From NCBI GenBank assembly GCA_937872125.1, contig CALMNY010000453.1, positions 1-12,502 on the forward strand: a stretch of DNA of 12,502 nt, read 5' to 3'. How positions within the stretch are numbered: the first letter of the stretch is position 1; every line of letters starts with the position of its first letter. The position numbers and the translations under genes are program-made. Shown one piece after another: positions 1 to 12,135 of this stretch. A model generated the notes under the pieces. That model ran no database searches, was not told where the DNA came from, and saw only the letters and a list, made by a program, of their open reading frames with translations. Source of the DNA: an uncultured Candidatus Competibacteraceae bacterium. Its GTDB lineage: Bacteria > Pseudomonadota > Gammaproteobacteria > Competibacterales > Competibacteraceae.

Positions 1-48
1 GAGCGCGCTTATGATCGGCCGGTCAATGACTTGCTGAACGCGAACTGA
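1..48 (+). CDS. C-terminal end of an upstream gene (unknown)
   Basis: Reading from base 1 gives 15 codons ending at TGA 46-48, with the tail ERAYDRPVNDLLNAN. The tail is hydrophilic and ordinary in composition, and the codons are typical of the neighbouring genes, so this is probably the real end of a gene whose body lies outside the window. The product cannot be identified from 15 residues. Since the next operon carries tra genes, it may be another transfer gene, but that is only a guess from position. Confidence 0.5.
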   Translation, partial: ERAYDRPVNDLLNAN

Positions 49-350
49 GTCGGTGGGCCCGCGCTGACCGGCCGCGGCGCCCCGCCTCAACCCCGGCGCG
101 CCCGCGCCGGCGCGCCACCCCTCCCTACCCGGAACGTCTGCCGGTGATCCGACCAGTCGCCCGTGCGCCGCTGGCCGGCCGCGGCCGCTCCCGCCACGGG
201 TCTGGTCCCGCCGCGCTTCCCACCTGATCGCGCCGGCCCTCCGTCGCGCCCTTTGCGGCGCAAGCGCGCCTTTTGCCCGCGCTTTCGCCGCAATACGCCC
301 GGAGGCGCTTGCTACAGTGCCGCCTCAATTACGGTCCCGGAGCGCGCGGC
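49..350. other. Intergenic leader region with dyads, no credible gene
   Basis: About 300 bases separate the upstream stop from the MBOAT gene. Reading frames exist on both strands but are Arg/Ala/Pro-rich artefacts of the GC content. Two GGCGCGCC octamers at 95-102 and 109-116 can pair with each other across six bases. A much stronger inverted repeat sits at 253-293. A weak extended -10-like element (TGCTACAGT, 310-318) has no convincing -35, so the operon promoter is not placed with confidence. Confidence 0.5.
253..293. repeat. Near-perfect 16-bp inverted repeat
   Basis: The left arm TTGCGGCGCAAGCGCG (253-268) and right arm CGCGCTTTCGCCGCAA (278-293) pair at 15 of 16 positions, with one C/T mismatch and a nine-base loop (269-277). 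It ends 57 bases before the GTG start of the MBOAT gene. No T run follows on either strand, so it is not a standard intrinsic terminator. It could be a leader hairpin in the operon mRNA, an operator for a dimeric regulator, or a recombination or nick-site dyad. The sequence does not decide between these. Confidence 0.75.
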
Positions 351-1787
351 GTGCTGTTCAATTCAGCCTTGTTCTTTTACGTCTTTCTACCCGTGGTGGT
401 GCTGGGTTATTACGTCGGGCGGGCGCGGGGCGGTTATGCCGTGGCCGAGGCCTGGTTATTCGCCGCTTCGCTCCTCTTTTACGCCTCGTGGGACATCCGT
501 TATCTGCCGCTGTTGCTGGGCAGTATCGCCGTCAATTACCGCCTGGGCCAGACGCTGCGTCGCCAGCCACGTCGCCGCTGGTTGGCGGTCGGGGTGGCGC
601 TGAACCTGGGTCTGCTGGGCTTTTACAAGTACGCGGACTTCTTTCTCGGCGAAGTGAATGCCCTGGCAGGCACGGCCTATCCGTTGTTCGGGGTGATTCT
701 CCCGCTGGGTCTGAGCTTCATCACCTTTCAGCAAATCACCTATCTGGTCGACAGTTTTCACGGCCAGTCCCACGGGGATGAGGGCTGGTTGCGCTACGCG
801 CTGTTTGTCACCTTTTTTCCGCAACTGGTGGCCGGACCGATCGTTCAGCACCGCGAGATCATTCCCCAGTTCGGCGCCCTCGCCCGCCCCACCCCCGGCC
901 TGACGTGGGGGTTCGCCACCGGGCTGTTCATCTTCAGTGTCGGCCTGTTCAAGAAGGTGGTGATAGCCGACAGCCTCGCGCCGTGGGCGGACTGCGCCTT
1001 TGCTGATACCGCCGCCCTCGGCTTCTTCGATGCCTGGACCGCCGCCCTGGCCTACACCCTGCAGATCTATTTTGATTTCTCCGCGTATTCGGACATGGCG
1101 GTCGGCCTCGGCCTGCTGTTTGGCCTGCGCCTGCCCCTGAATTTTCTCAGCCCCTATCAGGCGGTGACGATCTCGGACTTTTGGCGCCGCTGGCACATCA
1201 CCCTGGGGCGCTTTCTGCGCGACTACCTCTATATCCCCCTCGGCGGCAACCGCCAGCGCCTGGCCCGCACGCTGATGGCGCTGGCCGTCACCATGCTGTT
1301 GGGCGGACTGTGGCATGGCGCGGCCTGGACCTTTGTCGCCTGGGGCGGTTTGCACGGGGCCTATCTGGCGGTCTATCACCTGTGGCGGCGCGGCCGTTGG
1401 CGCTTGCCGCGGCCCGTCGCCTGGGCGCTGACGTTCACCGCCGTGGTCTTTGCCTGGGTCTTGTTCCGCGCCGACAGCTTTGCCGCGGCGTGGCATCTGT
1501 GGGGGGCGATGCTCGGCCTGCACGGGGTGGACCTGCCCAACACGCTACGCCCCATGCTGGGGTTTCTGGGCGAGGCCGTGGTGTGGCGCACGCCCCGCCA
1601 GGCCAATGGCCTGGAGATGCTGATCCTGCTGCCGCTGCTGGTGTTCGTGGTCACCCAGCCGAATGTCCACGACCTCGCGGCGCGCTTTCAGCCGACGCGG
1701 CGCTGGGGGGTGACGACCTTCGGCGCGGCCGCCGCGGCAGTGGTGCTCCTGGGGCAACCCACCACCTTCATCTACTGGGCCTTCTAG
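351..1787 (+). CDS. MBOAT family O-acyltransferase (AlgI/DltB-like)
   Basis: This is a polytopic inner-membrane acyltransferase of 478 residues, about the usual size for AlgI-like proteins. It moves an acyl group across the membrane to a partner that acylates an envelope polymer or protein. The GTG at 351 is preferred because it yields the family N-terminus (M)LFNSALFFYVFLPVV and has GGAG about nine bases upstream. Family landmarks include FFPQLVAGPI, SDFWRRWHITLGRFLRDYLY and PLGGNR, with the conserved membrane histidine in GLWHG at about residue 322 and a second in GGLHG at about 335. It heads an operon with a small membrane protein and an SGNH-fold protein, the standard partners of such enzymes, and then T4SS genes. 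The substrate is unknown. I see no alginate or cellulose genes nearby. Confidence 0.93.
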   Translation: MLFNSALFFYVFLPVVVLGYYVGRARGGYAVAEAWLFAASLLFYASWDIRYLPLLLGSIAVNYRLGQTLRRQPRRRWLAVGVALNLGLLGFYKYADFFLGEVNALAGTAYPLFGVILPLGLSFITFQQITYLVDSFHGQSHGDEGWLRYALFVTFFPQLVAGPIVQHREIIPQFGALARPTPGLTWGFATGLFIFSVGLFKKVVIADSLAPWADCAFADTAALGFFDAWTAALAYTLQIYFDFSAYSDMAVGLGLLFGLRLPLNFLSPYQAVTISDFWRRWHITLGRFLRDYLYIPLGGNRQRLARTLMALAVTMLLGGLWHGAAWTFVAWGGLHGAYLAVYHLWRRGRWRLPRPVAWALTFTAVVFAWVLFRADSFAAAWHLWGAMLGLHGVDLPNTLRPMLGFLGEAVVWRTPRQANGLEMLILLPLLVFVVTQPNVHDLAARFQPTRRWGVTTFGAAAAAVVLLGQPTTFIYWAF

Positions 1788-1791
1788 GCGC

Positions 1792-1941
1792 ATGGCCGCT
1801 CCTCTCCCGCCGAACGCCGCTGTGACCCGCCCGGTGCGGCGCTGGGCCCGGCGCTGGGTCGCCGCGCTCACCGTCTGGGCCCTTCTGCTCCTCCTGCTGA
1901 ATCTGTGGGTGATCCACGGCGGTGGGGCATCCCATGGTTGA
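1792..1941 (+). CDS. Small single-pass membrane protein, 49 aa, between MBOAT and SGNH genes
   Basis: ATG 1792 starts four bases after the MBOAT stop and the TGA at 1939-1941 overlaps the next gene's ATG by eight bases. This tight packing argues that the reading frame is used. The N-terminus is basic (RPVRRWARRW, about residues 13-22) and is followed by a single hydrophobic helix at about 23-41 (ALTVWALLLLLLNLWV), giving an N-in topology. A short tail, IHGGGASHG, ends it. In Gram-positive dlt operons a peptide of similar size, DltX, works with the MBOAT protein DltB and with DltD. A similar accessory role here is inference from size and position only. The helix resembles the N-terminal helix of the next gene, so a duplicated remnant is the main alternative. 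Confidence 0.5.
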   Translation: MAAPLPPNAAVTRPVRRWARRWVAALTVWALLLLLLNLWVIHGGGASHG

Positions 1942-3010
1942 CGCCCGCCACCCGGTTTCCCCGCCGTGCCCGCCGCCGGCGCCGGCGGCCGGCCGCGATC
2001 CGGCGCCCGCCCGCCGGTGGTCGCGCTATCTGGTCACGGCCCTGGCCCTGTGGACCGGGCTGCTGCTGACCCTCAATCTGCTGGTGGATCCGTTCCAGGT
2101 CTTTGGCCTGCTGCCGCTGCGCGACAGCTATGGGCCGAACGAGATGCTGAACAAATACCGGCATCTGGCCGCGCAGCCCACGCGCCATGACGCGTTCTTC
2201 ATCGGGTCGAGCCGGATGGGGGCATTTGACCCCGCGCATGTGGCGGCGCTCCGTCCCGAGCGGCGCTATTACAACCTGGGGGTGCTGGGCAGTCGCCCGG
2301 CAGAACAGCTGGCGTTACTCCAGGCGCTGCACACCGCCGGGGTGACGATCCGCGAAGTGGTCGTCGGTCTGGAACTTTACCCCTTTCTCACCCCGCCGCC
2401 GCGCGACGCGCTGACCTATCGCCTGCCGCCCGAGGTCACCGGGGAATCCCGCCTGTCATTTCACCTCGCTTATCTCTGGCAGGTGGATTATCCGCGACTG
2501 GTCTCGCGGCTTATCCATCAATTCCACGCCGCGCCGCAGATGCACTTCGATTTTACCGGCAGCGGGCGCTACCTGCTCACCGGGCTCGAACGGGAACGGG
2601 CGGCGGATCCGCAGGCGTATCAGCAGCGCTATGTCCCCGACCTGCCGGAAAGCCCGCGCCCCGCTGGGCCGCCCCCGTGGCGTGCCGACGCGTTTGCCGA
2701 GCTGACCCGGCTGCGGGACTGGCTGCAGGCGCAGGGCACCACCGCCTGGTATTTCATCCACCCCTTCCATCCCGGCGATCTGACCAACGTCCCGGTGAGC
2801 GCGCCGGCCGAATTCGTGCGCCAGCTCCGCGCCCTCCTGCCGGCGGTGCACGATTTTTCGCGCGACGCGCGGTTCCTCTCCAGTCGCGATTACTACGACT
2901 ACAAGCATTACACCTCCGTGGTGGCCGACGGCATTCTGCACGCGCTGTTCGCCGCGTCTCCCACCGCCTCACCGTCCGATTCCGCGGCTTTGGCCGGCGG
3001 GGGAGATTGA
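1934..3010 (+). CDS. Membrane-anchored SGNH-fold protein, MBOAT partner (acyl transferase/esterase-like)
   Basis: The product is 358 residues from ATG 1934, preceded by GGTGGGG; a GTG at 1922 would add four residues. After a Pro-rich N-terminus there is one membrane helix (about 32-54), and the rest is probably periplasmic. Block I of the SGNH fold is FIGSSRMG, with the likely nucleophile Ser93. The block V-like motif D322-Y-K-H325 followed by YTSVVADGIL supplies the Asp/His pair. NLGVLGSRPAEQ and VVVGLELYPF fit the strand and helix order. Proteins of this type (DltD, AlgJ/AlgX, PatB-like) receive acyl groups from an MBOAT protein or hydrolyse them. It is coupled to the 49-residue gene upstream and lies six bases before traC. 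The acceptor molecule cannot be told from sequence. Confidence 0.8.
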   Translation: MVDARHPVSPPCPPPAPAAGRDPAPARRWSRYLVTALALWTGLLLTLNLLVDPFQVFGLLPLRDSYGPNEMLNKYRHLAAQPTRHDAFFIGSSRMGAFDPAHVAALRPERRYYNLGVLGSRPAEQLALLQALHTAGVTIREVVVGLELYPFLTPPPRDALTYRLPPEVTGESRLSFHLAYLWQVDYPRLVSRLIHQFHAAPQMHFDFTGSGRYLLTGLERERAADPQAYQQRYVPDLPESPRPAGPPPWRADAFAELTRLRDWLQAQGTTAWYFIHPFHPGDLTNVPVSAPAEFVRQLRALLPAVHDFSRDARFLSSRDYYDYKHYTSVVADGILHALFAASPTASPSDSAALAGGGD

Positions 3011-3016
3011 AGCCGT

Positions 3017-5476
3017 ATGAGTGCGCAGGCGCGGATCAAACAAATGCTGGATCGGACCCGGCCGGAACAGTTTATTCCCGTCCTTTCCTACAATGAGGAG
3101 GACGGTCTGTTCTATGTCGATGGCGGCTTTGTCGGCGCCTGTTTCATGGGCGCCTTGTTGCCCGGCGTGGACGAAATGACCAGTTTGCGCCTGGCCAGCG
3201 CCTTGCGCACGCGTCAACCCCCGGGGACCTTCATCCAGTTCATGCAATTTGCCAGCCCCGACATCGAGCATCTGGTCGCGGGGTATAGCGGGCGGCGGGT
3301 GGGGATTACCCCGGACACCGACCCCCATCACTACCCAGGGCGGGCAGAGCAAATCGAGATCCTGCAGGAACTGGTCCGCCGCCGCACCCGGGCGATCAGC
3401 GCGGGCAAAACCACCGAATTGATCCCGCGGACCGGCATCCATTCCAATAATCCGGTGCTCGTCATCAGCATCAAGATTCCCGTGCCCAACGCCATCCCGT
3501 CGGAGCGGGAGTTCCGGGACGCCCACGACGCCATCATCAAGTTCCATGAGGCCCTGGAAACGGCGGGCCTGTCCCTGCGCCAGATGGGCAAGGCGGAATA
3601 CCTGCTGCTGATGCGCCGCCTGCTGCACATGCGCGGCGCCCAGGAGCGGTGGGTGGACCCGGAGCGCCTGATCCGCGATCAGGTCTTTGAGCCGGGTGAC
3701 GCGGTGAAAATCGATGGCGCCGATATCGAGCTCAACGACAGCGTGCTGCGGGTCCTGTCGGTCAAGACCTACCCGGAGACCATGGCCCTGGGGCGGATGC
3801 TGCCCCTCGCCGGCGATCCGGATGGCATTGACAACCAGATCCCCTGCCCCTTCACCCTCGTCACCACCCTGCACTATCCCGATCAGCGCAAGAAGACCGG
3901 CCTGGTGCGCTCGAAAAGCGGCGCCCTGAATTTTCAGGCCTATGGCCCGATCGTGAAATTCGCGCCGATCATCATGAAGAAGAAACAGGGAATCGACATC
4001 CTCATCGACGCGCTCAATGACGGCGATACGATCGTCGAGGTCAATTTCACCGTCACCCTGTATGAAGCCGACCGGATTGAGGCCGGCCGCGCCTCGGCCA
4101 TGCTGCAAACCTATTACAGCTCGCTGGGCTTTCTCATGGCCGAGGAGAAGTACATCGCCTTCCCGGTGTTCTGGAACACCCTGCCGCTGTTTCCCGATGA
4201 GGAGTCGATCAAGCAAACCTACCGCTACAGCACCATGGCGGCGCGGCATGCCGCGGTGTTCCTGCCGGTGGTCGGCGAGTGGCGCGGCACGGGCCATGAT
4301 CCGGCCATGCTCTTCTCCAGCCGGCGCGGCATGCCGGTGGAGCTGGATCTCTATCATTCGCCGACCTCCTACTCGGGGGTGGTGTTCGCCGAGTCCGGCG
4401 CCGGCAAGTCGTTCTTCACCAACCGCCTGATCGTCGACTATCTGAGTCTGGGCGGGAAAATCTGGGTGTTTGACGTCGGCCGCAGCTATTTCAAGCTGTG
4501 CAAGCTGCTGGGCGGCGAGTTCATGGAGTTTTCCGAGGACAGCAACATCTGCCTCAATCCGTTCACCCACGTGACCGATATTGACGAGGACCTGGATGTG
4601 CTCAAGGCGCTGATTGGCAAAATGGCCTCCCCAGGGGCCACCCTCAGCGCCTATCAGATGGCCAGCGTCGAAGAGGCGATCAAGCAGTGCTGGGGCCGCT
4701 ACGGGCCGCATACCACCGTGACCCACCTAGCCGAGTATTTCCGCTTTCAGGAGGACCCCCGCGAAACCGACCTGTCGCGGCAGCTGTTCCCCTTCACCCG
4801 GGACGGCTCCTACGGGCGCTTCTTCGATGGCGACAACAATCTGCAGTTCGAGAACCGCTTCGTGGTCCTGGAACTCGATCACCTGAAAAGCAAACGCACC
4901 CTGCAACAGGTGGTCCTGTTGCAATTGCTGGCGCGCATCCAGGCCGAACTGTTCCTGCGCCCGGAACGTGTGCCGCGGATGATCATCGTCGACGAGGCCT
5001 GGGAGCTGCTCGCCGAGCGCGATAGCCCCGGCGACCAGCCGGGCATGGTGGCGCAGTTTCTCGAGGCCAGCTATCGCAAACTGCGCAAGGCCACCGCCGG
5101 GGCGGTGGTGGTGACCCAGTCGATTCGCGATCTGGCCTCGACCTCCGCCGGCCGGGCGATTGCCGAGAACGCCCCGTTCCGCTTCATTCTCGCCCAGCGC
5201 CCGGAATCGATCGACGCCGCCCTGCGCGAGGGGCTGCTGGCCATGACGCCGGACAAGGCCCATGTCATGAAGACCATTCACACCCAGCCGGGGAAATACA
5301 GCGAGGTGCTGGTCGACTGCCCCCTTGGTTGGGGGACGATGCGCCTGATCGAGGATCGGTTCACCCAGGTGCTGTTTTCCACCCGGGGCCCGGAGCGCGA
5401 TGAGGTCATGGCGGCGATCAACGCCGGCGTGCCGCCCATCCGGGCGATCGAGGACTTTATTGAACGCCACGGCTGA
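3017..5476 (+). CDS. traC: TraC, F-type T4SS assembly ATPase (VirB4 family)
   Basis: At 819 residues this matches the VirB4/TraC size of F-type systems. It is a cytoplasmic, membrane-associated hexameric ATPase that powers pilus assembly. The N-terminal half (about 1-430) is the TraC-specific domain and the C-terminal half the P-loop domain. Walker A is ESGAGKS at about 459-465, in the context GVVFAESGAGKSFF. Walker B is RMIIVDEAWELL with Asp659 and Glu660. A conserved TQSIRDL stretch follows, near residue 705. A GGGGGAG ribosome-binding site lies in the end of the preceding gene. The start is six bases after the SGNH gene, which places the acylation module in the same transcript. The reading frame is intact, with no missing key residue. 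Confidence 0.96.
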   Translation: MSAQARIKQMLDRTRPEQFIPVLSYNEEDGLFYVDGGFVGACFMGALLPGVDEMTSLRLASALRTRQPPGTFIQFMQFASPDIEHLVAGYSGRRVGITPDTDPHHYPGRAEQIEILQELVRRRTRAISAGKTTELIPRTGIHSNNPVLVISIKIPVPNAIPSEREFRDAHDAIIKFHEALETAGLSLRQMGKAEYLLLMRRLLHMRGAQERWVDPERLIRDQVFEPGDAVKIDGADIELNDSVLRVLSVKTYPETMALGRMLPLAGDPDGIDNQIPCPFTLVTTLHYPDQRKKTGLVRSKSGALNFQAYGPIVKFAPIIMKKKQGIDILIDALNDGDTIVEVNFTVTLYEADRIEAGRASAMLQTYYSSLGFLMAEEKYIAFPVFWNTLPLFPDEESIKQTYRYSTMAARHAAVFLPVVGEWRGTGHDPAMLFSSRRGMPVELDLYHSPTSYSGVVFAESGAGKSFFTNRLIVDYLSLGGKIWVFDVGRSYFKLCKLLGGEFMEFSEDSNICLNPFTHVTDIDEDLDVLKALIGKMASPGATLSAYQMASVEEAIKQCWGRYGPHTTVTHLAEYFRFQEDPRETDLSRQLFPFTRDGSYGRFFDGDNNLQFENRFVVLELDHLKSKRTLQQVVLLQLLARIQAELFLRPERVPRMIIVDEAWELLAERDSPGDQPGMVAQFLEASYRKLRKATAGAVVVTQSIRDLASTSAGRAIAENAPFRFILAQRPESIDAALREGLLAMTPDKAHVMKTIHTQPGKYSEVLVDCPLGWGTMRLIEDRFTQVLFSTRGPERDEVMAAINAGVPPIRAIEDFIERHG

Positions 5477-5490
5477 CCGCGGCAGAGAGC

Positions 5491-6021
5491 TTGACCATAA
5501 CGCACCCTACGGATTCGCCCGCCCCCCCGGCCGCGCCCACCCGGCCCGCCGGCGGCGAGGGCTTTCTGCCGCTCTTTCTGGCGGTACTGACCGGCGGCCT
5601 GGTGGTCCTCGGTCTGCAGCTGTGGCAGGACGGGCTCGCGCCGCCGCCGGCGGCCCCGCGCCCGGCCTATGTCATCGTCGACAGCGACACCCTGCTGCAG
5701 GCGCAGCTGCAACAGGCGTTCACTCGCCCGGGCCGCCGCGAGGCCACTGTCGCGCCGCAGGTGGCCGCGGAGATGCGGCAGGCCCTCGAAACGGCCTTTG
5801 AGCGCTATACCCGGCAGGGCCTGGCGGTGCTGCATAAGGCCGCGGTCATCGCCGCCCCGCCGGCGTTGGATGTGACCGCGGCGGTGGCGCAGGACCTGGG
5901 CATCGCGCCGGAATTTCTCGACAGTGCCCGCCACTTCCAGCGCACCGGGGAATTGCCGGCGCTGCCGCCGGCGGCGGAGCCCGACCCGAGCCCGCCGGCG
6001 CCGGCGCCGGCTGCGCCATGA
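5491..6021 (+). CDS. trbI: TrbI, F-type conjugative transfer protein
   Basis: This is an inner-membrane, periplasm-facing protein linked in F to pilus outgrowth and retraction. It starts at TTG 5491, with a purine-rich AGAGAG just upstream, 14 bases after traC. Order in the 176 residues: Pro-rich N-terminus; a membrane helix at about 27-46 (LPLFLAVLTGGLVVLGLQLW); the TrbI core (YVIVDSDTLL, then AVIAAPPALDVTAAVAQDLG); and a Pro/Ala-rich tail from about 152. F TrbI is about 128 residues, so the ends are extended. The core pattern and the place right after traC both match F-type gene order. Its stop overlaps the next start as ATGA. Confidence 0.85.
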   Translation: MTITHPTDSPAPPAAPTRPAGGEGFLPLFLAVLTGGLVVLGLQLWQDGLAPPPAAPRPAYVIVDSDTLLQAQLQQAFTRPGRREATVAPQVAAEMRQALETAFERYTRQGLAVLHKAAVIAAPPALDVTAAVAQDLGIAPEFLDSARHFQRTGELPALPPAAEPDPSPPAPAPAAP

Positions 6022-6551
6022 GCCCCGCCCGCTGGTGGCGCGGCCCGCGCGTGCGGATCGCCCTCTTCGCCCTGCTCTTCGTGCCCGGCGCCTGGCTGGG
6101 CGCCCACACCCTGCATGCCGCCTGGTCGGCGCAGTACCGGATTGGCCTGGATGTGCAGCGCGTGGCCTGCCTGCCCTGGCAGGTGTACCTCATTGCCCGG
6201 CAGCCCTATAAGCCGACGGTGGAGCGGGGCGACATCCTCATGTTTCGCACCGACCTGGCGCTGTTCCGCCGCCAGTTTCCCGGCGTGGACGCCATCGCCA
6301 AACTGGTGGCGGGCCTGCCGGGCGATCGTATCGAGGTGCGCGATAATCAACTGTTCATCAACGGGGTCTATTGGGACCGCCTGTGGCTGCTCGGTTTTCT
6401 TGAGGCGGAGGACGGCGCCTTCGATCGCACGTTCGTGGTCCCCGAGGGCCATTACTTCCTGGCAGGGACCGCGCCGGGCAGCTATGACGGCCGTTATTGG
6501 GGCACGATCACGGCAGAACAGGTGACGGGTTATGTACGGCCGATATGGTAA
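6018..6551 (+). CDS. traF: TraF/TrhF-like S26 (signal peptidase-type) conjugative peptidase
   Basis: This 177-residue protein belongs to the S26 signal-peptidase-like group found after traC in SXT/R27-type systems, probably for pilin or subunit processing at the periplasmic face. One helix (about 13-33) anchors it. Box-like motifs follow in order: VACLPWQVYL (49-58), RGDILMF (70-76), AKLVAGLPGDRIEV (94-107) with the presumptive catalytic Lys95, and SYDGRYWG (145-152). Where RP4 TraF and LepB have the nucleophilic serine before x-P, this protein reads Cys51-Leu-Pro. Either the nucleophile is a cysteine, as may be normal in this branch, or the activity has changed. It overlaps trbI by four bases and the next gene by 20. 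Confidence 0.85.
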   Translation: MSPARWWRGPRVRIALFALLFVPGAWLGAHTLHAAWSAQYRIGLDVQRVACLPWQVYLIARQPYKPTVERGDILMFRTDLALFRRQFPGVDAIAKLVAGLPGDRIEVRDNQLFINGVYWDRLWLLGFLEAEDGAFDRTFVVPEGHYFLAGTAPGSYDGRYWGTITAEQVTGYVRPIW

Positions 6552-7770
6552 GTGGGTGCTGGGGGTGCTGTTGGCGCTCGGCAGTGGCGGGGCGCGGGCG
6601 GACCCGGTGGCGGACGTTCTGGGGGCGCTGCGCCAGCCCAGGCACCCCCCGGTGGCCCTGGAGGGTCTGGATGCGTTTCGCCGCGCCCCGGCGCCCGTCG
6701 CCGGGCTGCCCAGCGGCCCGTCCCAGGCGATCAGCACCTGGCTGCAGGCGGGAGGCCCGCCGGCGCCCACCGCGACCGCGCAGGCCCTGGCCGCGGAGAT
6801 CCGCGCGCAGAGTCAGGCGTCCCTGGCCGCGTCGGCGGGTTTCCCGGCGGCGGGAGAGCGGGCGACCAATCCGCTGCGCGGCAAGACCCTGGTGTTCATC
6901 TCCCTGGGCATGCCGGATGCGGCGCTGAAAGCGCTGCTGGAGCAGGCGCGGGGCCGGGACGATGTGGTGTTCTATCTGCGCGGCTGGCAGCCGCCCAAGC
7001 TGCAGGCGGTCTTCGCCCACCTGCACCGGCTGATCGATCTGGAAAAAAACCCGGTGATCGTCCTGATCGACCCGCAGCCGTTCAAGGATTACCAGATCCA
7101 GCAGGTCCCGGTGTTCCTGGCCGAGGATCCCCGGGGCGGCCCCTTGCGGCGCCTGGACGGGGAAATCGCCCTGGAGGGGGCCCTCGCCCGCCTGCGCGCG
7201 GACGAGCCGTTGCCCGAACACCCCATTGGCCAACTGCATCCGATCGCGGAACCGGACATCATCGACTATGCGCGCGAGAAGGCCGCGCGTCTCGACTGGC
7301 CGACCCTGCTGGCGGAGGCGCGCACCCGCGCCAAGCAGCGCATCCAGGGCGTGGCCCTGCCGCCGGCGAAGCGGGATCAGACCTATTACGTGGATCTGAG
7401 CGTGCGGGTGAAACAGGATATCCACGGCCCCCACGGGCTGCTGGCGCGCGCGGGCACGGTGATCAATCCCTTGACGCAGGTGCTGGTGCGCAGCCACTAC
7501 GTCTTTTTTGATCCGGCCTCCCCGGCGCAGCTCGCCATCGTCAAGGACTGGCTGCGCGAACACCGCAATGTGGTGCTGATCGCCACGGAACTCGCCCCCC
7601 TGTCCGAGGCGCGCGTGGCCTTGTCCGCGGAACTGGGCCAGCCCGTCTATCACCTCAACCCCACCCTGGCGAGCCGTTTTCAGCTGCGGGAAGTCCCGGC
7701 GCTGGCGATGGCCGAAGGGCCTTATCTCAAAGTGATCACCCGGAGCCCGCTGCTGACCCATGAGCACTGA
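6532..7770 (+). CDS. traW: TrbC-TraW fusion, F-type pilus assembly protein
   Basis: Two F-type periplasmic assembly proteins are joined in 412 residues. A signal peptide (about 1-23, ending GGARA) is followed by an Ala/Pro-rich stretch to about 117. The TrbC part, a thioredoxin-like repeat, begins at KTLVFISLGMP (118-128) and includes NPVIVLIDPQPFKDY. The TraW part begins near residue 230 with GQLHPIAEPDIIDY, which matches TraW's GxxYPIxExD opening. It continues with YVDLSVRVKQDI, AGTVINPL and the C-terminal RFQLREVPAL. TraW and TrbC interact in F, so one polypeptide makes sense. The start overlaps traF by 20 bases and the stop overlaps the S49 gene by 11. The cysteine of F TraW's LCQRF stretch is absent here (LASRF). 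Confidence 0.9.
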   Translation: MYGRYGKWVLGVLLALGSGGARADPVADVLGALRQPRHPPVALEGLDAFRRAPAPVAGLPSGPSQAISTWLQAGGPPAPTATAQALAAEIRAQSQASLAASAGFPAAGERATNPLRGKTLVFISLGMPDAALKALLEQARGRDDVVFYLRGWQPPKLQAVFAHLHRLIDLEKNPVIVLIDPQPFKDYQIQQVPVFLAEDPRGGPLRRLDGEIALEGALARLRADEPLPEHPIGQLHPIAEPDIIDYAREKAARLDWPTLLAEARTRAKQRIQGVALPPAKRDQTYYVDLSVRVKQDIHGPHGLLARAGTVINPLTQVLVRSHYVFFDPASPAQLAIVKDWLREHRNVVLIATELAPLSEARVALSAELGQPVYHLNPTLASRFQLREVPALAMAEGPYLKVITRSPLLTHEH

Positions 7771-8872
7771 CCTGCCGCTCCCGGCGGAGACCGCCGCCAC
7801 GCCCGCCACCTCGCCGCCGGGGGAGCCGCCACCGCCCGGGGCGCCGCCATCGGAGCCCACGCCCGGTCAGGGCGCGCCCCGCGCCGCCTGGCGCCCGCGG
7901 CTGGCCCGCGGCTGGCCGTGGCGGCGGCGGGCGGCGGTCACCCCCGGCCCCCTGGACCGCGACAGCGTCTTGCTGGAGGTCTGGCTGTTCCTGGTGCGGG
8001 AGCGCCGGCAGGCCCGGCGCCGCCATGTGGGGCTGGTGGTGCTGCTGGGGTTCCTGCTGGCCGCGCCGGCCCTGTTGCTCTCGGACCACGGGGTGAGTGA
8101 GTGGCTGACGCCGCGGGGTCCGACCATCCTGGCCGCGGTTGAGGTGTCCGGGGTGGTGGGCGCCAAGGCCGGCGTCGATGAGGAACGGGTGATCAAGGGG
8201 CTGCGCCGCGCCTACCAGGCGGCGCCCAAGGCTGTGGTGCTGCGCATCAATTCGCCCGGCGGGGCGCCGTATGTCGCCGAGCGCATCACCGCGGTGCTGG
8301 ACGAACTCAAGGGGGAGTTCCCCCACATCCCGGTGTACGCGGTCATCGAAGGGGTAGGGGCCTCCGCCGCCTACCTGATCGCGATCCATGCCGACGAGAT
8401 TATCGCCGGACGCTACAGCACCGTCGGCTCGATCGGCGCCGTGCTCAGCAGCTGGGACATGCATCGCCTGGCCGAGCGGGTGGAGGTAGGCAAGCACATC
8501 TTCGCCAGCGGCAGCCTCAAGGCCATGCTCGACCCCTTCCGGCCGCTGCAGGCGGCGGAGGCGGCCAAGGCGCAGGCGATCGTGGACAGTGTCGCGCAGG
8601 TCTTCGTCAGCGATGTGCAGGCGCAGCGTGGCCGCGCCCAGGCGCTGGATATGGCGGCGTTGACCACCGGCGAGGTCTGGGTGGGGGAACAGGCGGTGGC
8701 CCTGGGACTGGTGGACCGCCTGGGCACCCTGGAGACCCTGAGCCGGGAATTGGCGCTGAAGGTCGTGGACTTTACCGTCAAACCCAACCCCTTCGCCACG
8801 GGCCTGGCCGCGGTGGGGCGGCAGCTGACGGAGACCCTGCTGGCCACCGCGACCCAGCCGGTCTGGCGTTAA
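7760..8872 (+). CDS. S49 family serine peptidase (SppA/SohB-like), membrane anchored
   Basis: The protein has 370 residues. The first 85 or so are Pro/Ala/Arg-rich, a single helix lies at about 92-113 (VGLVVLLGFLLAAPALLL), and the rest is an S49 domain on the periplasmic side. It contains AVEVSGVVG, LRINSPGG, the Ser motif GVGASAAY with nucleophile Ser202, and the catalytic Lys254 in SGSLKAMLDPF. GLVDRLGT lies near residue 315. SppA-type enzymes degrade signal peptides and membrane-bound fragments through a Ser-Lys dyad, and both residues are present. It starts 11 bases inside the TrbC-TraW gene and precedes traU by 19, so it belongs to the transfer operon. Likely roles are clearing pilin leader peptides or quality control of assembly proteins. 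This is inference from position. Confidence 0.88.
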   Translation: MSTDLPLPAETAATPATSPPGEPPPPGAPPSEPTPGQGAPRAAWRPRLARGWPWRRRAAVTPGPLDRDSVLLEVWLFLVRERRQARRRHVGLVVLLGFLLAAPALLLSDHGVSEWLTPRGPTILAAVEVSGVVGAKAGVDEERVIKGLRRAYQAAPKAVVLRINSPGGAPYVAERITAVLDELKGEFPHIPVYAVIEGVGASAAYLIAIHADEIIAGRYSTVGSIGAVLSSWDMHRLAERVEVGKHIFASGSLKAMLDPFRPLQAAEAAKAQAIVDSVAQVFVSDVQAQRGRAQALDMAALTTGEVWVGEQAVALGLVDRLGTLETLSRELALKVVDFTVKPNPFATGLAAVGRQLTETLLATATQPVWR

Positions 8873-10178: not shown

Positions 10179-10304
10179 AGTAAATTATTAATGTTTCGTC
10201 ATAAAAAGAAGTGGAAACCCGAAATAAGAAGTGGAAAAATCCACCTACCCCCGGCAAAAAAAAAAGTGGTAAAAACCCAAATAAAATTTATGGCTTCAAC
10301 CCTC
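10179..10304. repeat. AT-rich segment with short direct repeats after traU
   Basis: Base composition changes abruptly after the traU stop: this stretch is A-rich while everything upstream is GC-rich. AAGAAGTGGAAA occurs at 10207-10218 and again at 10227-10238, 20 bases apart. A looser copy with GTGG at 10266 is followed by AAAAACCCAAATAAA, echoing the first copy's AAACCCGAAATAA. GTGGA/TCCAC forms a short hairpin at 10231-10244. A 70-codon frame (10191-10403) crosses it but lacks a ribosome-binding site and has odd Lys-rich composition, so I do not call it a gene. It may be the edge of an inserted element. Confidence 0.5.
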
Positions 10305-10775
10305 GATGAGTCGCTGGAGGGAGAGCGAGTTTATCCCTTGGCTCATCTTTTCACCTGGGCAACGTCAGGTTCCGGCACTTCCAGAGCAGTCATTTCCTGC
10401 TAGCTGTCTAGCCCACTGGGGGCTAACTCTAGGCGTCAAACCATGGACGGGTAGTCTAGCTGTCCCATGCCTCTTAGGCAGGTTCGTCAGAGGTCGCCGC
10501 CCGATCGGGCCTAGCTGGGTCCTGATGACACGGTCGCCCCAAGCCCAATCTGCCAGTGAGGCGGTGGTGGGCAAGATGGGGAGCATTCATGAATGACAGG
10601 TAAGTCAACCGAAGCCTCAAGTTTGCCTCTTTTAGTAATAGGGGTGTTGTCGCTAAGTCACGAGCCAGCGGCACAAGAGCGATACTGAATTCTGGCCGAG
10701 TAAGGTCTCGTTATGGTCCCGGCTTGCGAAAGAACGATCATAACCGACCAGAAGAAAAAGGTTCTTTGGCTGCTG
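10305..10775 (+). ncRNA. Candidate structured RNA, omega RNA/HEARO-like
   Basis: No frame here looks like protein, but hairpins follow one another: 10305-10347 (GATGAG/CTCATC, inner GGGA/TCCC), 10353-10370, 10409-10425 (TAGCCC/GGGCTA), 10468-10480 (TGCCT/AGGCA), 10500-10509, 10543-10572 and 10690-10753. The last is a nested arm with TTCTGG/CCAGAA outside and a 9-bp perfect GTTATGGTC/GATCATAAC inside. The core at 10575-10606 (GATGGGGAGC, then GTAAGTC) resembles, in the same order after a hairpin, the GATGGAGC...ATAAGCC segment of the IscB omega RNA as I remember it. Omega RNAs guide IscB nucleases and lie upstream of iscB. I searched by eye for group II intron domain V and found none. The strand is inferred from this resemblance. 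The structure is well supported and the family is not. Confidence 0.42.
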
Positions 10776-10909
10776 CAGGCTACCCATGCATCCCAGTGGT
10801 CCCCATTGACGATCCAGGGGTGAGTAGCACAACCCATAAGGGGCCCTTGGAACGGGCCATCAACCGTAAGCGGACATACCTCAGACGACCGGCGGCGACC
10901 GGTCTGTAG
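10724..10909 (+). pseudogene. Possible remnant of an IscB-like N-terminus
   Basis: Directly behind the structured RNA, a short frame contains IPVVPIDDPGVSSTT (from about 10790) and then LERAINRKR before a stop at 10907-10909. IscB/IsrB proteins begin with a pattern like (V/I)PV(V/L)..DGKPLMPTTP.RAR, and the spacing of PVV, ID and TT is similar. The hallmark PLMP is absent and nothing resembling the RuvC or HNH domains follows. If real, it is only a decayed stub and the RNA would be an orphan. Chance similarity is quite possible. The frame's first codons overlap the RNA hairpin and are unlikely to be coding. Confidence 0.18.
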
Positions 10910-10960
10910 CTATGCAGGCCCCCTCTCCCCTCTCCCCGGCCCTGCCCCACGTGCGGGGGG
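10887..10960. repeat. Palindromic, C-rich intergenic segment
   Basis: GACCGG/CCGGTC forms a 6-bp stem at 10887-10904 around CGGCGA, and a CCCC...GGGG dyad centred on CACGTGC lies at 10945-10958 after a long pyrimidine run. Segments of this make (CCCTCTCCCC...GTGCGGGGG) are frequently scattered between genes in proteobacterial genomes and resemble REP-like elements. No T run follows either stem. It may end the transcript of the RNA upstream, but that is not demonstrated. Confidence 0.35.
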
Positions 10961-11025
10961 GTGAGGATCAGCAATGTGTGCCGATCAAGCCCTCTTGGGG
11001 CGTGAGGGGTCTGAACGGGGACGGG

Positions 11026-11375
11026 GTGGGATGCGGGCCTGCTTGCTGGTACTTCGGGCTGGAGCGGGAGCGCCCGGCGCCGCAGGCCTGGCGGTGCGTG
11101 CGGGAGCGGCATGCCACGGTGGCGGCCCTGTTCAACATCCTGGGGGCCGAGGTGATGGCCCAGTATGGGTACCTGGAAGAGGTGTGTGACGGGGGAGCGA
11201 GGCCCCGGCTCAGGTGGAGCCCCGGTCGGTGGTAGATATCCTCGATGACGGGCGGGTGGTGGCGTGGCGGGTGCCGTGCGGTTTCAGGGGTTTGACGCAG
11301 ATAGTCGGCGATGAAGCGGTTCCCGCCCGTCCGACGGTGACGGCTCAGCGCCTTGCGGGGCGGCAAGCCGCGTGA
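11026..11375 (+). pseudogene. Unknown small protein gene broken by a one-base frameshift
   Basis: Two adjacent frames read as continuous protein if one G is restored in the GGGGG run at 11191-11195. The first part, from GTG 11026 or earlier, contains WYFGLERERPAPQAWRCVR and TVAALFNILGAEVMAQYG. After the run the other frame continues with EPRSVVDILDDGRVVAWRVP and ends at TGA 11373-11375, giving about 116 residues. In the present sequence the first frame stops soon after with a Trp/Arg-rich tail, and the second has no start of its own. I do not recognise the family. The break could be true decay, a sequencing error in a homopolymer, or less likely programmed frameshifting. The start is uncertain because the frame is open back to 10912. 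Confidence 0.5.
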
Positions 11376-11409
11376 GACGCCGCCAAGTGGAAGGTAACCA
11401 ACAACAATC

Positions 11410-11444
11410 ATTCCATTGACGGAATATTCCGGCTGGGCTATTTT
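11410..11444 (+). promoter_or_regulatory. Toxin-antitoxin promoter with palindromic operator
   Basis: TTGACG (-35, 11416-11421) and TATTTT (-10, 11439-11444) are separated by exactly 17 bases, upstream of the toxin ATG at 11451. GGAATATTCC, a perfect 10-bp palindrome at 11421-11430, fills the spacer, and a further ATTCC half-site at 11410-11414 overlaps the -35 side. A bound Xre-type antitoxin would block RNA polymerase, the usual autoregulation of such operons. The expected transcription start is at or next to the ATG, so there is no room for a Shine-Dalgarno sequence. Confidence 0.65.
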
Positions 11445-11450
11445 TGGCTC

Positions 11451-11816
11451 ATGACGTGGGAGGTTGAGTATACCGATGAATTCGGCGCCTGGTGGGCCGG
11501 CCTGACCGAGGGTGAACAAGAGTCCCTGGCGGCGTCGGTGCGCCTGCTGGAGGAGCGTGGGCCCGCCCTGGGTTACCCGCATAGCAGTGGCATCAGCGGA
11601 GCGAAGCACGGTCATCTGCGGGAGTTGCGAACCCAGCACGAGGGGCGCCCGCTGCGGACCTTATACGCGTTCGATCCGCGGCGGTCAGCGATCTTGCTGA
11701 TCGGTGGCGACAAGACGGGCGACGATCGCTGGTATGTCACCCACATCCCGATCGCGGATCGGTTGTATGACGAGCACCTTGAACAACTCCGACAGGAAGG
11801 GCTGATCGATGGCTAA
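11451..11816 (+). CDS. higB: HigB-like toxin (RelE/ParE superfamily, Gp49-type)
   Basis: This 121-residue protein belongs to the phage Gp49/HigB branch of RelE-like toxins, which as a rule cut mRNA on the ribosome. The N-terminus (EVEYTDEFGAWWAGLTEGEQ) forms the usual helical part, and YPHSSGISGAKHGHLRELR (42-60), R69, YAFDPRRSAILLIGGDK (72-88) form the sheet with basic residues expected at the active site. It comes first in the pair, as in higBA. Its stop overlaps the antitoxin start by eight bases (ATGGCTAA). No ribosome-binding site precedes ATG 11451, which fits leaderless translation from the promoter just upstream. The reading frame is intact and key residues are present, so the toxin is likely active and held in check by its partner. 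Confidence 0.88.
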   Translation: MTWEVEYTDEFGAWWAGLTEGEQESLAASVRLLEERGPALGYPHSSGISGAKHGHLRELRTQHEGRPLRTLYAFDPRRSAILLIGGDKTGDDRWYVTHIPIADRLYDEHLEQLRQEGLIDG

Positions 11817-12135
11817 CAAGTTCGCCGACCTGCGGGCGCGGATGACGCCCGAATCCCAGGCGCGCGCCGAGGCGCGGGCGCAAGCGCTGCTGGCGGAAAT
11901 GCCGCTGCACGAACTACGGCAGGCGCGTGGCTTGTCGCAGAAGATGCTGGCCGAGGTCCTTCACGTCCAGCAGCCAGCCATCGCCAAGATCGAAAAGCGC
12001 ACGGACATGTACATCTCGACGCTGCGCAGCCACATCGAGGCGATGGGCGGTCAACTGGAGATCGTGGCACGATTTCCTGACGGTACGGTGAAGATCAGCA
12101 ATTTTGCCGCCCTGGGCGGCAATGCGATCCCCTGA
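11809..12135 (+). CDS. higA: HigA-like antitoxin, Xre family HTH
   Basis: The product has 108 residues. A helical N-terminus (about 14-31) precedes a Cro/C1-type helix-turn-helix at about 36-64 (LRQARGLSQKMLAEVLHVQQ, then PAIAKIEKR). Next comes YISTLRSHIEAMGGQLEIVA, a signature of the Xre antitoxins paired with Gp49/RelE-like toxins. It neutralises the toxin and should bind the GGAATATTCC operator upstream. The start lies within the toxin's last codons, with GGAAGG about ten bases before it, so translation of the two is probably coupled. This couples production of inhibitor to toxin. I see no clear intrinsic terminator in the 56 bases that follow. Confidence 0.92.
   Translation: MANKFADLRARMTPESQARAEARAQALLAEMPLHELRQARGLSQKMLAEVLHVQQPAIAKIEKRTDMYISTLRSHIEAMGGQLEIVARFPDGTVKISNFAALGGNAIP

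Follow-up and report, generated by a model that had tools for sequence, protein, structure and literature searches.

The window analysed here, a 12.5 kb stretch comprising the whole of contig CALMNY010000453.1 (C453) of an 80.7% complete metagenome-assembled genome (MAG) from an uncultured Candidatus Competibacteraceae bacterium (GCA_937872125.1), encodes an MBOAT O-acyltransferase and an SGNH acyltransferase directly upstream of traC, the ATPase gene of an F-type type IV secretion system (T4SS). Sequence comparison with plasmids and genomes indicates that this MBOAT-SGNH pair is a recurrent part of MOBH/F-type conjugative elements. The features at the centre of the analysis are as follows (ORF, open reading frame).

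351..1787, + strand: MBOAT O-acyltransferase (DltB/AlgI/PatA-type), GTG start, 478 aa, PF03062 102.8 bits (cut-off 27)
1792..1941, + strand: 49-aa ORF, probably no gene
1934..3010, + strand: SGNH acyltransferase with N-terminal membrane helix, GSS (91-93), DxxH (322-325) and SGNH fold
3017..5476, + strand: traC, F-type T4SS ATPase, TIGR02746 670 bits (cut-off 567)

Motifs and Selection in the MBOAT-SGNH Pair

The MBOAT protein ends in FIYWAF, the acyl-Tyr shuttle motif (FXYXXF) of MBOAT-SGNH transferases. F473, Y475 and F478 of this tail, together with the conserved His H322, are invariant in 16/16 aligned MBOATs, and FIYWxF is present in all 17 module MBOATs of the tree set as well as in one further locus (L020). 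The protein is the sole PF03062 match in its MAG. Among PDB sequences its nearest MBOAT is DltB, and it did not reach the NCBIfam LTA_dltB equivalog cut-off (147.5 versus 375 bits). In the SGNH protein, G91, S92, S93, D322 and H325 are invariant in 17/17 aligned sequences, and the predicted structure adopts an SGNH fold with DltD as the top Foldseek match. Neither protein matched the TraX family domain at E<=0.1 in Pfam or NCBIfam. Three sequence features that characterise a bacterial MBOAT-SGNH pair were found, i.e., an MBOAT domain with its His, a C-terminal FXYXXF motif and, encoded next to it, an SGNH protein that has the Ser and DxxH.

A contig of another MAG (SACH01000087.1, locus L012) is 94.3% identical to the window at the nucleotide level over 8.8 kb and has the same gene order; as this order occurs in an independent MAG contig, the arrangement in the window is not an assembly accident. 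Between the two contigs, the ratio of nonsynonymous to synonymous substitution rates (dN/dS) was 0.22 for the MBOAT and 0.30 for the SGNH gene, indicating purifying selection on both, and 0.06 for TraC.

An earlier reading of the window, made from its sequence only, had included a "small protein", the 49-aa ORF, in the module. This membership did not hold up: the ORF gave a near-neutral dN/dS of 1.03 between the window and L012 (thin evidence, coming from one sequence pair and 49 codons), its hydrophobic stretch is gone in L012, and related modules leave no space for it because the SGNH start overlaps the MBOAT end. The ORF is therefore probably not a gene. The FXYXXF motif by which a DltX microprotein would be recognised was also absent from it, its C-terminus being GGGASHG.

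Packing of the Pair against traC

The MBOAT, SGNH and traC genes are co-oriented on the + strand, and 6 bases lie between the SGNH stop and the traC ATG, which, with the domains and motifs described above, bears out the sequence-only reading in its claim of a tightly packed acylation module. No promoter- or terminator-like sites, which that reading had named as potential counter-evidence, were found in the SGNH-traC gap; over the whole window they numbered 2 and 7, compared with 1.6 and 7.9 in shuffled sequences, and are thus at background level.

L012 reaches further upstream and contains, in order, the C-terminal part of traB, traV (ORF 1321-2076, matching PF09676), the MBOAT-SGNH pair and traC. 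In three relatives (Allochromatium pAt1, a Simplicispira plasmid and Methylomonas pUP202) the pilin gene traA lies between traV and traC; by gene order, the pair therefore fills the traA slot. At 2-1321, L012 also carries an in-frame join of a UbiX-like flavoprotein domain (PF02441) to the TraB C-terminal part (PF03743), which may be a chimeric assembly or a genuine fusion.

Recurrence of the Pair near Conjugation Genes

With the window SGNH protein alone as query, matches were found in 5 of 72,556 plasmids, four from Methylomonas and one from Methylobacter. All five have an MBOAT gene directly upstream that overlaps the SGNH gene, and carry mobH-traD at a distance of up to 10 kb from the pair; in Methylobacter YRD-M1, mobH is 9.9 kb away and an RHS gene lies in the interval. 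Searched against 59 genomes, the same query returned itself and one weak N-terminal match; a further search, in which scoring was limited to the 8,000 candidates with the most shared words, recovered three proteins with 74-93% identity. The wider loci were found with alignments that started from the window and its plasmid matches. A profile scan of genome contigs yielded 13, each with an MBOAT gene directly upstream (13/13); TraC was above cut-off in 11/12 of the underlying genomes, and a MobH match was likewise present in 11/12. A five-sequence profile run against 369 gammaproteobacterial genomes recovered the window and, in addition, 7 matches that were weak and partial, all of them next to a generic MBOAT (loci L026-L032, ~3.4 kb each).

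The window, the five plasmids, the 13 profile-scan loci and one locus each from the genomes G502 (cut by the contig end) and G554 make up a set of 21 loci, which are not independent and include several near-copies. Conjugation genes are present in the fetched flank of 17 of these (mobH-traD in 15, traC in 2), so that the module is not found mostly away from transfer genes, the outcome that the earlier reading had considered damaging. Three arrangements were observed. The Methylomonas loci have mobH, traD, a hypothetical gene, a DUF4400 gene, a nuclease gene and a second hypothetical gene followed by the pair; in Methylobacter and its kin, the pair precedes genes for a HerA-like ATPase and a PH-domain protein, then mobH-traD; in the window and L012 the pair stands between traV and traC, and only these two show pair-traC adjacency. 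The proposed fusion into an F-type operon at traC is thus real at these two loci but exceptional; elsewhere the pair goes with mobH-traD. In all three arrangements the pair points in the same direction as the transfer genes. The gaps are 2-16 bp in the window and the Methylomonas plasmids, and 76-127 bp in five loci of the Methylobacter type.

Within Methylococcales, 13 of 221 genomes have the SGNH subfamily (E<=1e-15) and 44 have an F-type TraC (E<=1e-100). All 13 module genomes are among the 44 (hypergeometric probability 1.5e-10, uncorrected for relatedness). As a control, we inspected other plasmid MBOATs, and mobH or F-type tra genes were annotated within the 9-12 kb fetched in 0/8 cases; these were hand-picked among 35 listed of the 131 non-module records (136 plasmid records had an MBOAT match), and the PLSDB gene tables are incomplete. 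One control plasmid, from Skermanella rosea, has P-type trb genes ~8 kb from its MBOAT.

Four Methylococcales modules have small lipoprotein-like genes of one family shortly 5' of the MBOAT gene (L013 7004-8226, L014 6588-6854, L021 7209-8415, L024 7736-8065). No Pfam match was obtained for the three tested; they are candidates for a partner or exclusion lipoprotein.

Surrounding Genes and Other Parts of the Element

The remaining features of the window are listed below.

1..48, + strand: 3' end of traV (last 15 codons and stop), 48/48 bases identical to the L012 traV 3' end
253..293, no strand: inverted repeat between traV and the MBOAT gene, 8+7 bp stem, seen in the fold
5491..6021, + strand: trbI-like gene (F-type), PF09677 22 bits (under the cut-off of 27.4), placed as in relatives
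6018..6551, + strand: S26 signal peptidase, TraF/LepB-like, PF10502 68.7 bits, TIGR02771 57.7 bits (under the cut-off of 100)
6532..7770, + strand: TrbC-TraW fusion, PF09673 above cut-off, TIGR02743 (TraW) 70.7 bits, under cut-off, matching separate parts
7760..8872, + strand: S49 (SppA-like) peptidase within the tra operon, PF01343 109 bits
8892..10178, + strand: traU, PF06834 247.5 bits

Scores above cut-off for TIGR02746, PF06834 and PF09673 place the locus in the F-type T4SS (MPF_F) class, with the TraW model below its own cut-off. The S49 peptidase gene is flanked by the TrbC-TraW gene and traU; in pUP202 of Methylomonas, an S49 gene comes after traN instead. No tra genes were identified 3' of traU (10179-12135), where the ORFs searched begin after ~1.3 kb. 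The gene pair located there, at 11451-12135, Gp49/HigB-like and helix-turn-helix, resembles a toxin-antitoxin system.

The inverted repeat lies 57 nt 5' of the MBOAT gene, and its stem is conserved in L012 with an altered loop. It occurs at a single place in the 3.49 Mb MAG (search with <=3 mismatches), which rules out a repeated genomic element; it is a possible regulatory site, either an operator or a transcript hairpin.

Further transfer genes are found on contig C35 of the same MAG. Its 183-7900 region encodes TraL, TraE, an OmpA-like protein, a thioredoxin-like protein, an SLT lytic transglycosylase and a T2SSE-type ATPase; a lytic transglycosylase of the SLT type also occurs in pUP202, and to our knowledge the standard F set has no secretion ATPase of the T2SSE kind. 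A TraA-like pilin gene (48% identity to the Allochromatium pilin) is located on the strand opposite to the traL, traE, SLT, T2SSE and thioredoxin-like genes. Since the MAG has a single TraC above the family cut-off, C35 and C453 are probably parts of one element. F-type TraC (E<=1e-60) was found in 1 of 39 genomes of the window's family, namely the window's own, which fits a mobile element.

Discussion

Pathways dedicated to particular polymers (alginate, cellulose, peptidoglycan, teichoic acid) are a known setting of MBOAT-SGNH pairs. In the full-text literature on MBOAT with conjugation, relaxase or type IV secretion, we found no report linking such pairs to conjugative elements. What the present analysis shows directly is the gene content, the motifs, the predicted fold, the selection on both genes and their repeated linkage to mobH-traD or tra genes. 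Because of this linkage, together with the selection and the motifs, we regard the pair as a working O-acyltransferase travelling with MOBH/F-type elements. On balance, and with some reserve, the sequence data favour a membrane O-acyltransferase of these elements that acylates an envelope polymer by way of a Tyr/Ser shuttle.

In the proposed mechanism, cytosolic acyl-CoA would supply the MBOAT with an acyl group, which is probably acetyl, and on the periplasmic side the enzyme would auto-acylate the Tyr in its C-terminal FIYWAF tail, a shuttle chemistry that we infer from published work on PatA/PatB. The membrane-anchored SGNH protein would accept the acyl group on its active-site Ser and hand it to a hydroxyl of the envelope polymer. 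By analogy, O-acylation of an envelope glycan or a mating-surface component is most likely; an envelope glycan is favoured as substrate because peptidoglycan is the target of the characterised FXYXXF pair, and other pairs modify polysaccharides. This target, peptidoglycan or a surface polysaccharide altered while the transfer genes are expressed, is less certain than the shuttle chemistry. O-acetylation blocks lytic transglycosylases, and local peptidoglycan O-acylation could, for example, confine the element's own lytic transglycosylase encoded on C35. It could also change donor-surface contacts; a role in entry exclusion or in altering the mating surface is equally plausible. We tentatively extend this proposal, at somewhat less than even odds, to a lineage of MOBH/F-type elements in which, as part of the conjugation process itself, a dedicated acyl-Tyr-shuttle O-acyltransferase modifies the donor envelope, acting either on peptidoglycan near the T4SS or on the mating surface.

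Several observations weigh against this assignment. Four of the 21 loci have neither mobH-traD nor traC in the fetched flank: L013, with Rep3, ParA and ParB genes downstream; L014 and L024, with a ParM-like gene upstream (the L024 contig stops 2 kb downstream); and L020, whose module is identical to that of Methylobacter YRD-M1 and whose contig stops 3.5 kb downstream. The pair is missing from 31 of the 44 TraC-bearing Methylococcales genomes and is therefore not essential for transfer. In the six Methylococcales genomes with both on one contig, traC is 34-346 kb from the pair. The MBOAT and SGNH trees (45/77 and 68/95) are compatible with, and no proof of, a single origin of the window-type and Methylococcales-type modules. 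MobH was not found in the window's own MAG, at its 80.7% completeness; in the sister genome G403, MobH and TraD are on a different contig. Finally, a gap of 302 bp lies between traV (stop at 48) and the MBOAT gene (start at 351); the pair could thus have its own promoter and be transcribed with traC separately from the upstream genes.

The strongest competing explanation, which we consider unlikely yet worth keeping in view, is that the pair is surface-modification cargo that acylates host lipopolysaccharide or capsule, for phage receptor masking or fitness, and hitch-hikes with no role in mating. Besides the TraC-bearing genomes that lack the pair, it would be in keeping with some generic MBOAT-SGNH pairs on other plasmids, which sit among glycosyltransferase, alginate or cellulose genes. 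However, the regions retrieved from the five plasmids contain no annotated glycosyltransferase, and the close, co-oriented spacing with transfer genes in three arrangements also counts against this explanation.

O-acylation of the pilin or of a pilus-bound lipid, making the pair a functional stand-in for TraX, is improbable. Its position in the traA slot and the Ser/Thr residues of the TraA-like pilin on C35 are consistent with this idea, which the sequence-only reading had put forward while describing TraX as an unrelated protein that acetylates F pilin. TraX and the MBOAT are both integral membrane acyltransferases with genes in F-type transfer regions, but TraX belongs to a different family; it acetylates the pilin N-terminus and is dispensable for pilus formation (PMC7555446). 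A second study describes traX as non-essential, yet carried by 88% of the plasmids analysed (PMC5102898). FXYXXF MBOAT-SGNH pairs pass acyl groups via Tyr and Ser intermediates onto polymers (PMC12148441). The analogy fails because of this difference in chemistry, and TraX-like N-acetylation of pilin by the pair is unlikely. Moreover, the pair and the TraA-like pilin gene lie on different contigs, 35 kb separate traA from the pair in pUP202, and the L013-L024 flanks gave no TraA match, although so short a protein could be missed; the S26 TraF-like peptidase may hint at different pilin processing. A chance, non-functional insertion into one operon, for which the restriction of traC adjacency to the window and L012 might speak, is largely refuted by dN/dS of 0.22-0.30, intact catalytic motifs and recurrence near conjugation genes, and is highly improbable.

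Among known systems, the peptidoglycan O-acetyltransferase PatA/PatB is likewise an MBOAT-SGNH pair with an FXYXXF shuttle; the window pair differs in its location in a conjugation operon and in an SGNH model nearest to DltD. DltB/DltD, which D-alanylates teichoic acids, provides the nearest PDB MBOAT and the top Foldseek match, whereas the window pair has no DltX microprotein (the small ORF being neutral), falls below the NCBIfam DltB cut-off and comes from a Gram-negative host. Related pairs near conjugation genes are carried by the MOBH/MPF_F plasmids pUP202, pLM6 and pFW12EY of Methylomonas and Methylobacter, although there they lie near mobH-traD instead of between traV and traC, where pUP202 keeps traA.

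Sequence comparison thus indicates that relatives of the pair recur in plasmids of methane-eating bacteria near DNA-transfer genes. If the proposed role in conjugation is true, envelope O-acylation would serve transfer or exclusion, by a chemistry unlike that of TraX. The link of O-acylation with mating, exclusion or T4SS insertion is testable, and sequenced Methylomonas isolates with complete pair-bearing plasmids exist. As this pair travels with conjugation genes, conjugative elements may chemically reshape the donor envelope with an envelope-modifying tool of their own.

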